Shown here: piece by piece, positions 4,219-19,292 of the stretch
How positions within the stretch are numbered: the first letter of the stretch is position 1
How the letters are laid out: every line of letters begins with the position of its first letter
Origin: a virus
IMG/VR virus record: IMGVR_UViG_3300025889_000577
Coordinates: 1-31,327 of that record
Length of the DNA: 31,327 bases
Strand: one strand, 5' to 3'
Made by a program: the position numbers and the translations under genes
Notes under the pieces: model-generated
The model's input: only the letters and a program-made list of their open reading frames with translations
Told to the model about the DNA's origin: nothing
The model's database searches: none

Positions 4219-4227
4219 AAAGAATAT

Positions 4228-4307
4228 GGCAATACCACATAGAGATGATAGCCTTTATGATGGGTATGGAACTCTTATGAGTGTAGGTTCAAATCCTACT
4301 ATTGCCA
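4228..4307 (+). tRNA. tRNA-like element, non-canonical (acceptor stem and T arm only)
   Basis: GGCAATA (4228-4234) pairs perfectly with TATTGCC (4300-4306), followed by A as discriminator. A perfect T arm GTAGG-TTCAAAT-CCTAC (4283-4299) has the conserved TTC and A positions and abuts the acceptor strand correctly. The rest does not fit a standard tRNA: the only hairpin before the T arm is ACTC-TTAT-GAGT (4271-4282), with a four-base loop, and 4237-4259 can form a 7-bp hairpin (CATAGAG/CTTTATG) where the D arm should be. No CCA is encoded, which is usual in this phylum. It may be a degraded tRNA, a highly divergent one, or a tRNA mimic. No anticodon is proposed. Confidence 0.5.
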
Positions 4308-4331
4308 CTAATAATAAAAAAGTAAAAAAGT

Positions 4332-4502
4332 ATGAAAAATGCTCTAAATTGGGATGTAGTAATCCTACTAGTATTAAATTTAATCGCCTTTGTAGGTGTT
4401 TGCACAATTTTTATGAATGAATTGTTAGGTTTTTTAATTTTTATGCCCTCAATAACGTTGTTGGGGTTGTTTTTTAAGCAAAAAAGTCGACAAAGTTTGT
4501 AA
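4332..4502 (+). CDS. Small membrane protein, 56 aa
   Basis: A 56-residue hydrophobic protein with two predicted membrane helices: about 8-27 (DVVILLVLNLIAFVGVCTIF) and 31-48 (LLGFLIFMPSITLLGLFF), then a basic tail KQKSRQSL. By the positive-inside rule both ends would probably face the cytoplasm. Family unknown. It lies between the tRNA-like element and a strong terminator. A TerC-family membrane protein follows after the terminator, but separate transcription is likely. Confidence 0.65.
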   Translation: MKNALNWDVVILLVLNLIAFVGVCTIFMNELLGFLIFMPSITLLGLFFKQKSRQSL

Positions 4503-5292: not shown

Positions 5293-5335
5293 AGAGTAAA
5301 GGGTAAAGACGAAAGAATAAAAAGTAAAGAATAAA
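5277..5335 (+). repeat. Purine-rich degenerate tandem repeat
   Basis: Units like AGAGTAAAG and AGTAAAGAATAAA recur four times from the end of terC to just before 5347. The stretch is almost free of C. It could be slippage-expanded leader sequence; no coding function is seen. Confidence 0.6.
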
Positions 5336-5346
5336 TAATAAACATC

Positions 5347-5628
5347 ATGGAAGTACTAACAGCAATTGAATTTTTTAAAGAGACATCCTTAAAAAGAAGA
5401 AAAAAAGAGAATGAATACATTAGAGACATTATTATAAGTCAGTCAGAGTTTTATTTAACTGAAGATGATTTTCAATTAGGTTATCTAGAAGAGACTGATA
5501 TTATGATTAATATAGATGAAAAATATTTTCAAATAGATGATATGAATTTTACTGATTGGTGTAAGAGACATTTTATAGTTTTAAGTGAAAGTGATAAGAC
5601 AATAAGAATAGATGGTTTTAAATTTTAA
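5347..5628 (+). CDS. Hypothetical protein, 93 aa
   Basis: An unrecognised protein with a basic patch near the N-terminus (SLKRRKKEN, 14-22) and an otherwise acidic body. It ends in short beta-forming segments (HFIVLSES, IRIDGFKF). It starts a run of small genes spaced by A-rich gaps with no Shine-Dalgarno sequences. Confidence 0.6.
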   Translation: MEVLTAIEFFKETSLKRRKKENEYIRDIIISQSEFYLTEDDFQLGYLEETDIMINIDEKYFQIDDMNFTDWCKRHFIVLSESDKTIRIDGFKF

Positions 5629-10306: not shown

Positions 10307-10567
10307 ATGAAAAGAAAAAAGAAAGAAGTCCTACTATTAGGCGAAGGTGTTCATCAACACACATTGTACGGAGATTTTTTAATTGATGAGGTTAGGGAAG
10401 ATTATTCTAACCTTAAAGTTAGAAAAGATAGTTTATTAAAACATGAACATCCAAGTGGTAAGTTTGGTGAGCACAAGACGTTAGAGATTGAGAGTGGTGA
10501 TTGGATAATGGGTAAGCAAGTAGAGTATAATCCATTCACACAAAAAGTAACAAGAGTATGGGATTAA
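10307..10567 (+). CDS. Conserved small phage protein, 86 aa
   Basis: Contains GEGVHQHTLYGDF (12-24), LLKHEHPSGKFGEHKTLEI and WIMGKQVEYNPFTQKVTRVWD. The His-rich blocks (HQH, HEH, EH) and the QVEYNPF ending are highly distinctive of a family seen in several phage groups; I know no function. Metal binding by the His residues is possible. It is the last gene before the three-way-junction RNA at 10584-10662. Confidence 0.6.
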   Translation: MKRKKKEVLLLGEGVHQHTLYGDFLIDEVREDYSNLKVRKDSLLKHEHPSGKFGEHKTLEIESGDWIMGKQVEYNPFTQKVTRVWD

Positions 10568-10583
10568 AAAAACAAAGATGAGT

Positions 10584-10662
10584 AAAGGCTTAACTAGATT
10601 ATGTATGCAATTAGCTCCGTAATCTCTTGCACCTGCAGACAGTGAGGTGGTTAAGCCTTTTT
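10584..10662 (+). ncRNA. Compact three-way-junction RNA candidate with terminator-like end
   Basis: An 11-bp perfect outer stem (AAAGGCTTAAC 10584-10594 with GTTAAGCCTTT 10650-10660) encloses two hairpins: AGATTA/TAATCT (10596-10601 with 10620-10625) and CACCT/AGGTG (10630-10634 with 10645-10649). TGCAA in the first loop (10606-10610) can pair with TTGCA (10627-10631), a possible pseudoknot. Five T follow the outer stem. It is about 79 nt, flanked by two nearly identical start contexts (AACAAAGATGAGTAAA), and an ATG at 10578 opens a 14-codon frame into it. It could be a small RNA, a regulatory leader for 10677 or an elaborate terminator. I recognise no known class. Confidence 0.6.
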
Positions 10663-10676
10663 AAACCAAAACAAAG

Positions 10677-10817
10677 ATGAGTAAAAAAGAAAAATTAAAA
10701 ACATTTGAATGTATAGAGCATGGGGAAATATTCCTAATAGATGCTAAAGATATTAATGAAGCAAAAGAGTTCGCCCAAATGTATGGTGGCAGTGTAATAA
10801 GAGAAATTAAAAAATAA
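10677..10817 (+). CDS. Small protein, 46 aa
   Basis: Starts MSKKEKLKTFECIEHGEIFL and ends GGSVIREIKK. A short beta hairpin followed by the helix DAKDINEAKEFAQMYGG suggests a compact domain. It follows the structured RNA by 14 bases, so the RNA may regulate it. Family unknown. Confidence 0.5.
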   Translation: MSKKEKLKTFECIEHGEIFLIDAKDINEAKEFAQMYGGSVIREIKK

Positions 10818-10822
10818 AAGCT

Positions 10823-11359
10823 ATGGGACAATATTATAAACCAATTTGTTTAGATAACGAATTAAAAGAACAGTGGGTATATTCACACGATTATGATAAT
10901 GGATTAAAGTTAATGGAGCATTCATATATTAGTAATAACTTTGTAGGTATTGTTGAGAGACTTTTATCAGTTGGTAATCTATGGTACATGAAACCTTTAG
11001 TATGGGCAGGTGATTATGCTGATATTGATAAGTTTCAGTTACATAACTTGTATGAACAATGTGATGAATATAACAAATTCAAAAACGAAAAAGGATTAAA
11101 AGTATTCAATCCTAGATATATAATTAACCATACAAATAAAGAGTTTGTTGACAAGTACAAAACACCAAAAGATAATGATGGATGGAGAGTTCATCCCCTA
11201 CCACTTCTTACTTGTGAAGGTAATGGTAGAGGTGGAGGAGATTATAGATTAGATAATCCCAACATTGGAAGATGGGCTAGAGATGTTATATCTGTATCCA
11301 AAACAAAACCAAAAGAAAAAGATTTAGTTGAATTAGTACCTAACTTTTTAATGGATTAG
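10823..11359 (+). CDS. Conserved phage protein (MGQYYKPI family), unknown function
   Basis: A 178-residue protein with highly conserved blocks: MGQYYKPICLDNE at the start, WVYSHDYDNGLKLMEHSYI (18-36), PLVWAGDYAD (58-67) and HPLPLLTCEGNGRGGGDYR (124-142). I recognise this set from proteins spread over many phages and some bacteria, with no known activity. The invariant His/Asp/Glu and the Gly-rich loop suggest an enzyme or nucleotide-binding site. It appears full length and lies three bases before the next conserved gene. Confidence 0.7.
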   Translation: MGQYYKPICLDNELKEQWVYSHDYDNGLKLMEHSYISNNFVGIVERLLSVGNLWYMKPLVWAGDYADIDKFQLHNLYEQCDEYNKFKNEKGLKVFNPRYIINHTNKEFVDKYKTPKDNDGWRVHPLPLLTCEGNGRGGGDYRLDNPNIGRWARDVISVSKTKPKEKDLVELVPNFLMD

Positions 11360-16154: not shown

Positions 16155-17078
16155 ATGAATGTATTAAGTTTATTTGATGGGATTAGCTGTGGTAGAATGG
16201 CTTTAGATCGGTTGAATATTAATGTAACAAATTACTTTGCTAGTGAAATTAATGAATCAGCAATTAGGGGTGCAAAAGCATTGTATCCAGATACAAAACA
16301 CATTGGTAGTGTTTTAGATGTAAAGGCTAAAGATTTACCAAAAATTGATTTGCTGATTGGTGGTAGTCCTTGTCAATCTTTTAGTCGGAGTGGAGATGGT
16401 AGTGGATTTGATGGTAGTTCAAGATTGTTTTGGGAATGGGTTAGATTACTTAGAGAGATACAATCTTATAATCCAAACGTAAAATTTCTATTAGAGAATG
16501 TTGTAATGAAAAAAGAATGGGAAGATATAATTACAAATGAGTTAGGTGTTAAACCTCATCTAATAGATAGTACGCTTGTATCTGCACAAAAAAGACAAAG
16601 ATTGTATTGGACTAACATAGATGGTTTTATTGAGCCAATAGATAAAAAAATAACAACATTAGATATAATCGATGAGGAAGATTCATTTGTTGATATGCCT
16701 GATGGCTTTCTATGGTTTGAAGATGACGAATGGAGAGTTAAAAATGCAACAAAAAAAGGTTACTTAGTAGTTAATAATTTTGATACTATAAACCTAGATT
16801 TCCCAAATTCTAATACAAGGAGGGGTAGAGTTGCTAAACAAAAAACAAATACCTTAAACACAGGTTGTAATCAAGGTATATTTATTAGTGGTAAAATAAA
16901 AAAACTAACAGCTAGGGAATGTGGAAGGTTGCAAACATTAAGCGATCAACAAATAGACATGCTTAAGTTAGTTATGACAGATAACCAAATGAAACATGCT
17001 TTTGGTAATGGTTGGACTATAGATGTAATATCATCTATATTATGTTCTTTAAAAATGTATTTAAATAAAGTTGCTTAA
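16155..17078 (+). CDS. DNA cytosine-5 methyltransferase (copy 1)
   Basis: Transfers a methyl group from S-adenosylmethionine to carbon 5 of cytosine in DNA. The 307-residue protein has the C5 motif order: I, LFDGISCGR (6-14); IV, GGSPCQSF with catalytic C73 (69-76); VI, LLENV (112-116); VIII, QKRQRLYWTN (145-154); a target-recognition region (about 160-255); IX, LTARECGRLQTL; X, FGNGWTIDV. The LFDGISCG form of motif I is typical of compact phage enzymes. No cognate endonuclease is nearby, so protection of phage DNA against host restriction is the likely purpose. It is the first of three paralogues; target sites differ if the recognition regions differ, as they appear to. Confidence 0.9.
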   Translation: MNVLSLFDGISCGRMALDRLNINVTNYFASEINESAIRGAKALYPDTKHIGSVLDVKAKDLPKIDLLIGGSPCQSFSRSGDGSGFDGSSRLFWEWVRLLREIQSYNPNVKFLLENVVMKKEWEDIITNELGVKPHLIDSTLVSAQKRQRLYWTNIDGFIEPIDKKITTLDIIDEEDSFVDMPDGFLWFEDDEWRVKNATKKGYLVVNNFDTINLDFPNSNTRRGRVAKQKTNTLNTGCNQGIFISGKIKKLTARECGRLQTLSDQQIDMLKLVMTDNQMKHAFGNGWTIDVISSILCSLKMYLNKVA

Positions 17079-17577: not shown

Positions 17578-18396
17578 ATGAATGTATTAAGTTTGTTTGA
17601 TGGAATGAGTTGTGGGCAAATTGCCCTAGAAAGGGCTGGTATTGAGTATGATACCTATTACGCTTCTGAAATAGATAAATATGCTATACAAGTAGCAAAA
17701 AATAATTATCCAAATACATTACATATAGGGTCAGTTACTGATATAAGTGTCGATGATTTTGGTGATGAAAAAATTGATTTATTAATTGGTGGGTCACCAT
17801 GCCAATCGTTTAGTAGGGCCGGGGATGGTAGCGGATTTGATGGTAGTAGTAAACTATTTTGGGAATTTGTAAGAGTCTTAAAAGAGGTTAATCCTACATA
17901 TTTTCTACTAGAAAACGTAATAATGAAAAAGGAGTGGGAGGACGTTATTACGGAAGCATTGGGGGTAAAACCTATAGAAATCAAAAGTTCTAAATTTGTT
18001 CCACAAGCAAGAAGGAGATTATATTGGACTAATATTCCAAATGTTGAACAGCCAGAACAAGTAGAGTATGATGTAAATGATTTCTTCGAGGGTGATGGTT
18101 TTCCATCAGCTTGTGATACTAAAAGAATATTTAAAAAGAAAAATATATTTAATACATTAACAGCTACATATTGGAAAGGTATTAGGGGTAGTGGTAGACC
18201 CTCTGTAAGTATAGAGGAGGGTTTCTTAGATGATAATAGGGATGCACATAGGATGCTGACACCAAACGAGTGTGAGGCATTACAAACTGTACCTAAAGAT
18301 TATACTGATGGGGTAAGCAAAACTCAAAGATATAAAATGTTGGGTAACGGTTGGACAGTAGATGTAATAGCACATATATTTAAAAATATAAAATAA
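17578..18396 (+). CDS. DNA cytosine-5 methyltransferase (copy 2)
   Basis: A 272-residue C5 methyltransferase, close paralogue of its neighbours. Motif I is LFDGMSCGQIALERAG (6-21), motif IV GGSPCQSF with catalytic C75, motif VI LLENV (110-114), motif VIII QARRRLYWTN (143-152), motif IX LTPNECEALQTV and motif X LGNGWTVDVI. All key residues are intact, so it should be active. The target-recognition region (about 155-220) is short and differs from copy 1. It is separated from copy 1 by two small genes and from copy 3 by five bases, and all three begin with nearly the same codons (MNVLSLFDG), pointing to tandem duplication and divergence. Confidence 0.9.
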   Translation: MNVLSLFDGMSCGQIALERAGIEYDTYYASEIDKYAIQVAKNNYPNTLHIGSVTDISVDDFGDEKIDLLIGGSPCQSFSRAGDGSGFDGSSKLFWEFVRVLKEVNPTYFLLENVIMKKEWEDVITEALGVKPIEIKSSKFVPQARRRLYWTNIPNVEQPEQVEYDVNDFFEGDGFPSACDTKRIFKKKNIFNTLTATYWKGIRGSGRPSVSIEEGFLDDNRDAHRMLTPNECEALQTVPKDYTDGVSKTQRYKMLGNGWTVDVIAHIFKNIK

Positions 18397-18401
18397 AAAT
18401 C

Positions 18402-19292
18402 ATGAATGTATTAAGCTTATTTGACGGAATGTCTTGTGGTCAAATTGCACTAGAAAGAGCAGGTATTAAAGTGAATAAATACTATGCATGTGAGATAAAA
18501 GAACATGCAATAAAAGTTACACAAAGTAATTATCCTAACACAATTCAGTTAGGAGATGTGACTAAAATAAAAGCTAGTGATTTACCAAAGATTGATTTGT
18601 TAATTGGTGGTAGTCCTTGTCAAGATTTTAGTCGAGCTAATAAAGAGACGAAAGGCCTTGATGGTGAAAAAAGTGGATTATTCTGGGAGTATGTTAGACT
18701 ATTAAAAGAAGTAAAACCAACTTATTTTCTTTTGGAAAATGTTAGAATGAAGAAAGAGTGGCAAGATATTATCTCAGAAGAACTAGGGGTACAACCTGTT
18801 AGAATTAACTCTTCATTAGTTAGTGGGGTATTGAGAGACCGTTTTTATTGGACTAATATACCATTCAATACTAATATCAAAGATAGGGAAATTAAATTAT
18901 CTGACATTATTGACGATGGGTATGTTGATAGAGAAAAGGGTTTATGTCTGCTTGAGAGTTATTCTAGACCATTAAAAAATCCAGTTAAAATCGCTAGAAG
19001 GTATTTTCTATATGGATTTTGGCAAGTTATATTCAAAGACGAAGAAACTTATAATAAACTAAAAGAAGATTATAGTTTAGCTCAAGAAGGTGATGTTAGG
19101 TATATGACAAACAAAGAGATGGAAAGAGCACAAAGTGTACCACCTGGATACACATCAGAGTTAACAAGAAATGAATCAGCATGTCTCTTAGGGGATGGAT
19201 GGACAGTTGATGTTATAGTTGAAATATTTAAAGGTATAAAAGATGAAGGTAATAACAGATTGCAGTATTTGCAAAAAAGACTTTATGTATGA
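18402..19292 (+). CDS. DNA cytosine-5 methyltransferase (copy 3, divergent motifs)
   Basis: A 296-residue paralogue with intact motif I (LFDGMSCGQIALERAG), motif IV (GGSPCQDF, catalytic C73) and motif VI (LLENV). Two motifs differ from copies 1 and 2: motif VIII reads VLRDRFYWTN (143-152) with Val where Gln is usual, though both Arg are kept, and motif X reads LGDGWTVDVI with Asp for Asn. It probably still folds and binds SAM; activity is less certain. The insert KETKGLDG after motif IV is also distinct. The last 17 residues run past the point where copy 2 ends (FKNIK) and overlap the next gene by 50 bases, suggesting that the original stop was lost. Confidence 0.85.
   Translation: MNVLSLFDGMSCGQIALERAGIKVNKYYACEIKEHAIKVTQSNYPNTIQLGDVTKIKASDLPKIDLLIGGSPCQDFSRANKETKGLDGEKSGLFWEYVRLLKEVKPTYFLLENVRMKKEWQDIISEELGVQPVRINSSLVSGVLRDRFYWTNIPFNTNIKDREIKLSDIIDDGYVDREKGLCLLESYSRPLKNPVKIARRYFLYGFWQVIFKDEETYNKLKEDYSLAQEGDVRYMTNKEMERAQSVPPGYTSELTRNESACLLGDGWTVDVIVEIFKGIKDEGNNRLQYLQKRLYV

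Follow-up and report, generated by a model that had tools for sequence, protein, structure and literature searches.

A conserved three-way-junction RNA of phages, found within tRNA arrays and in stand-alone copies

Results

A compact structured RNA lies between small genes

The window, by which we mean the whole stretch of DNA analysed here, is an IMG/VR virus record of 31,327 bases. An 86-codon gene ends at position 10567, and directly 3′ of it, on the + strand, a structured RNA with a trailing T run occupies positions 10584–10662. The original prediction had described a compact three-way junction here from the sequence alone, and the MFE and centroid structures both reproduced that fold exactly. 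Its folding energy is −26.7 kcal/mol (z −3.5), a value equalled by 2 of 200 shuffles. The closing stem, P1, is 11 bp long in the window copy and 8 bp long in the part conserved across the family (5′ strand 10587–10594, extended here to 10584; 3′ strand 10650–10657, extended here to 10660), and it encloses two hairpins with junctions of 1, 4 and 0 nt. The first hairpin, P2, has 8 bp (10596–10603 with 10618–10625, the first six pairs being conserved) and carries the loop TATGCAATTAGCTC at 10604–10617. After the 4-nt junction J2/3 (10626–10629) comes P3, of 5+2 bp, in which CACCT (10630–10634) pairs with AGGTG (10645–10649) around the loop GCAGACAGTG (10635–10644), and whose 3′ strand abuts P1 directly. 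The element thus spans 10584–10660, or 77 bases, in the window, compared with about 71–77 nt, with a single junction, across the family; a terminator-like T run covers 10658–10662.

A 14-codon ORF, MSKGLTRLCMQLAP, overlaps the RNA at 10578–10622 (+). We rejected a coding gene, as this ORF is disrupted in G002 and has no counterpart in the tRNA-array copies, and changes of 1 nt in the lengths of loops 2 and 3 would shift any reading frame.

The element is preceded by a gene-start motif. The 16-mer AACAAAGATGAGTAAA occurs twice in the window, at 10571–10586, where it overlaps P1, and at 10670–10685, before the next gene, a 46-codon gene at 10677–10817 (+). Near-identical flanks had been predicted; the repeat is present and its copies are in fact identical, at positions 2 nt lower than those first given. 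The leader AACCAAAACAAAGATGA recurs before other small genes of the window phage (14818 and 20663), and it or a close variant precedes the element in the window and in G001–G004, where that sequence could be checked. At 10664, 14818, 20663 and 20847 the leader overlaps the ends of upstream ORFs, several of which read ...NKDE*, and it recurs exactly in other phages, before their small genes.

Comparison with a colinear phage, G006, whose flanks are 96% and 89% identical, showed that it lacks the segment at about 10572–10805 of the window, and with it both the element and the 46-codon gene. ATTAAAAAA stands at both edges of the missing segment, and other small genes come and go in the same region, relative to G006, at similar gene boundaries. 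Because G006 is without the element and the next gene, the two together form an accessory cassette. The repeated start motif stands before numerous small genes of these phages and is thus a general leader into which cassettes are set rather than an insertion footprint. Of the suggestion that the element was inserted or duplicated at a start codon, the accessory nature of the segment is therefore retained and the start motif as a trace of insertion is not. In G002 (L236, 5983, − strand), another leader copy lies downstream of the element and is followed by no more than a 9-codon ORF and sequence that seems to pair; this may be a further non-coding RNA set behind a start motif. Elsewhere in the window, three paralogous genes (16155–17078, 17578–18396 and 18402–19292) share one small region and look like C5 cytosine methyltransferases.

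Homologues occur in mostly unrelated phages

Copies of the element were found in at least 26 other IMG/VR phage records, one per record. An exact pattern of the core retrieved four other viral records, relaxing its 5′ half brought in the tRNA-array copies, and relaxing its 3′ half yielded further ones; one loose pattern gave mostly coding matches, and the homologue total is a lower bound. The alignment holds 20 distinct sequences, window included, with pairwise identities of 66–99%, and the other phages that carry the element are mostly unrelated. The contig of G004 (L004) begins at the element, which fits an assembly break at sequence shared between phages.

Scans of other collections returned no copy. 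The exact pattern gave chance matches only in contigs of 84,980 species (GTDB), model R1 with strict filters found no copy in 395 Bacteroidia genomes, and blastn with two variants against named phages produced matches at chance level. Two weak model matches were set aside as chance-like, one in G032 that is without P3 and one in Cellulophaga phage phi14:2 that falls inside a structural-protein gene. Flavobacterium phage immuto, the nearest cultured kin, has no credible copy. The array phages are related to it (the DNA polymerase of L499 is 74% identical and the baseplate protein of L495 45% identical to those of immuto), and their hosts are therefore probably Bacteroidota.

Compensatory changes preserve the fold

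We derived the structure from the window alone and scored it on 16 sequences outside the window group. All 304 of 304 cells for the 19 core pairs hold standard pairs (100%), a percentage that none of 500 shuffles reached, and the covariation score was likewise reached by 0 of 500; control structures slid out of register were 27–47% paired. Double compensatory changes occur in nine pairs, six of the eight in P1, two in P2 and one in P3, where a C-G pair becomes U-A in four sequences; as the sequences are related by descent, these counts are not of independent events. The two inner pairs of P2 and the inner pair of P3 are not general across the alignment. A covariance model built from the 16 outside sequences finds the window copy with the same ends, 10584–10660, at 95.5 bits (E 7e-25). 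From these alignments the three-way-junction fold is judged to be real and kept by compensatory mutation. The original prediction had allowed that homologues whose stems break without compensation, or a terminator enclosing nothing but random sequence, would speak against it, and the stems proved to be compensated.

Wobble pairs on the + strand comprise 22 G-U and no A-C. Since all are of the G-U kind, selection acts on the RNA of the + strand and not on the DNA or on the other strand. An integron attC site, for which the outer RYYYAAC/GTTRRRY can be fitted by eye, was rejected, as the inner arms do not pair in the manner of an attC site and the wobbles show an RNA strand.

Most copies stand in tRNA arrays

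Among the matches listed, the element belongs to a tRNA array in 20 of the 26 other records and has the same orientation as the tRNAs. The shortest spacings measured are 3–5 nt, to tRNA-Thr(UGU), tRNA-Ser(UGA) or tRNA-Asp(GUC), and the flanking tRNA lies on either side of the element, varying by copy. The space separating tRNA-Ser from tRNA-Thr in L244 is taken up exactly by the element. A position 5 nt before tRNA-Thr is common to many of the array copies, which partly reflects common descent. In the window, G001–G004, G071 and G072, the element is located outside recognised tRNA arrays. The T run follows P1 in the stand-alone copies of the window and G001–G004 (four lineages), and copies before tRNA-Thr are without it and continue with TAAAA or similar, so that the proposed terminator does not extend to the family as a whole.

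The element shares with tRNAs their operons and spacing, a closing stem of 7–8 bp and, stacked directly on the 3′ strand of that stem, a hairpin resembling a T-arm; the element's second hairpin stands where a tRNA has its D and anticodon arms, so that it resembles a reduced tRNA as well as the phage C4 RNA considered below. It differs in its 8-bp P1 and in having neither a T-loop motif nor an anticodon arm: the T-loop GGTTCRAATCC is not in the element, where P3 reads CACCTGCAGAYAGTGAGGTG in alignment A2. The element scores below the cut-off of the tRNA covariance model (RF00005) and receives no ARAGORN call. The tRNA cluster of phage T4 also yields non-tRNA RNAs, the stable species C and D of about 120–140 nt.

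The window phage has a second tRNA-like RNA, at 4228–4307 (+), which scores 27.3 bits against the Rfam tRNA cut-off of 29. It has a 7-bp acceptor, one hairpin, a canonical T-arm and no clear anticodon arm, and is thus similar in plan to the element, but with a true T-arm. A homologue in G001 (L525, 463–534, − strand) is 79% identical, and the ORF at 4226–4420 that lies over this RNA is probably spurious. Unannotated and apparently conserved inter-tRNA stretches are present in L242 (about 560–622), L247 and L405 (e.g. AGAGGGGGATACGTGAACCAATAAGCGTCC...ACTCCCC), with similar stretches upstream of the element in L378, L383, L409 and L427; these may be other array RNAs.

The conserved bases lie in the hairpin loops

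The P2 loop of 14 nt, UAUGCAAUUAGCUC, is invariant in 14 of 14 columns across the 20 sequences, which is partly a matter of ascertainment in that some pattern scans included the loop; it was also kept in matches from a pattern without it. The P3 loop has 4 invariant columns of 10 and a length change of 1 nt in five sequences, and the junction J2/3 is variable, with 0 of 4 columns invariant. The conserved bases therefore sit in hairpin loops. A predicted pseudoknot between TGCAA and TTGCA was not supported: both segments are present, they show no covariation, and the pairing breaks at column 45 in 10 of 20 sequences, at column 46 in two and at column 47 in one. All 20 could form a contact between UGC in loop 2 and GCA in loop 3, whose bases are nearly invariant and so uninformative for covariation.

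Sequences that could pair with the loops were sought in hosts and phages. In 299 Flavobacteriaceae genomes the complement of loop 2 is about as frequent as expected by chance (10 matches, all apparently coding). Within 1.5 kb in the element-bearing phage sequences, no complementary target site exceeded shuffles except in L429, where the score was 32 against a local shuffle maximum of 27 in one of 39 tests. In that phage, G071, two structures are complementary to the P3 region of the element, a tRNA-like RNA (5470–5537) some 60 nt downstream and a hairpin just upstream (5300–5340); both complementarities span 14–15 nt and are seen only in G071.

Comparison with known RNAs

None of 4227 Rfam models, hammerhead and purine riboswitch included, matched at the gathering level, and the window and three other loci gave no family match at relaxed E either. 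In open-access literature on non-coding RNAs of phage tRNA clusters we could find no description of the element. As far as these searches show, the RNA family is new with respect to Rfam 15 and the open-access literature searched. As a kind, RNAs other than tRNAs are already known from the tRNA arrays of phages (PMC10879173, PMC12286853). The phage non-coding RNAs GOLLD and ROOL are often near tRNA islands, and their function is unknown (PMC12286853); they are large and ornate, in contrast to an element of about 71–77 nt with one junction.

Discussion

We propose, with a probability of roughly 55%, that the element is a small trans-acting non-coding RNA gene, whose product, released either through tRNA processing or at a terminator of its own, would bind a partner through the P2 loop. 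Array copies would be transcribed together with the tRNAs and released upon maturation of the flanking tRNAs, as the tRNA-sized slot with its 3–5 nt spacers suggests; in the window group the RNA, sitting alone between genes, would end at its own P1-plus-T-run terminator. A stable body may arise by stacking of P1 and P3, much as acceptor and T-arm stack in one half of a tRNA, and from it the invariant P2 loop and the conserved P3 loop would bind a protein or an RNA of the host or the phage during infection. The variable neighbours and the copies outside arrays argue for action in trans.

The main rival is a cis role in tRNA processing, with the element as a processing or stability element that insulates or positions the cuts between tRNAs as a spacer, or caps the end of a stand-alone transcript and protects it. 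The distance to tRNA-Thr, constant at 5 nt in many records, with 3–5 nt to other tRNAs, and the T run after P1 in stand-alone copies are consistent with such a role. However, a mere spacer needs no invariant loop of 14 nt, and the element is also found outside arrays and beside different tRNAs; we regard a cis role as possible and on the whole unlikely. We would give a somewhat smaller chance to a tRNA-shaped decoy or inhibitor, which the host tRNA maturation machinery would release and whose invariant 14-nt loop would act on a host factor involved with tRNA or translation, such as a tRNA-targeting defence nuclease.

In architecture, the closest known RNA is the C4 antisense RNA of phages P1 and P7, without a match in sequence or target. 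C4 is about 77 nt long, with P1, P2 and P3 stem-loops and two antisense loops, and RNase P cuts at the 5′ end of its P1, freeing the RNA from a longer transcript (PMC5320573). The size and the plan of a closing stem P1 with two hairpins are alike, and the P2 and P3 loops of the element might similarly pair with a target mRNA. Against this, C4 (RF01695) was not listed by cmscan at E up to 10 for window positions 10400–10850, nor at the other copies checked; the host genomes hold the loop-2 complement at about chance level, the element-bearing phage sequences offer no notable complementary site except in L429, and C4 belongs to an immunity operon where the element belongs to tRNA arrays. A C4-like antisense RNA is thus doubtful.

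By analogy with the theta ribozymes, HDV-like and directly beside phage tRNA genes as small structured RNAs (PMC10879173), the element might be a self-cleaving ribozyme of a new type that releases the ends of tRNAs, to which its tight three-way junction and invariant loop could also point. Theta ribozymes, however, have a nested double pseudoknot and for the most part cut no more than 1 nt away from a tRNA 3′ end; the element has a three-way junction with no pseudoknot support and tRNA ends 3–5 nt away on either side. It matches no ribozyme family, has no known core, and keeps its conservation in the hairpin loops with a variable junction, and we consider self-cleavage improbable. Still less probable is a riboswitch or attenuator that acts on the gene after it and for which the 14-codon ORF might serve as leader peptide. 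In the window a T run does close the fold, and the fold shares sequence with a start codon and the short ORF, but T run and ORF are missing in array copies, the ORF of G002 is disrupted and the downstream gene differs between phages, so that the riboswitch first suggested has no constant gene to control. An ordinary intrinsic terminator with an interior of random sequence, to which P1 followed by TTTTT might point in the window group with its four stand-alone lineages, is hardly credible given the conserved P2, P3 and loop 2, the covariation in P2 and P3 that contradicts it, and the copies before tRNA-Thr that lack the T run.

The set of non-tRNA RNAs from phage tRNA arrays is small and functionally little characterised, and the element brings to it a well-supported family. 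As a short RNA with a clear consensus and an invariant loop, it lends itself to direct tests of whether RNase P releases it, whether it cleaves itself and what it binds. The gaps between phage tRNA genes, which usually go unannotated, can hold conserved RNA genes.
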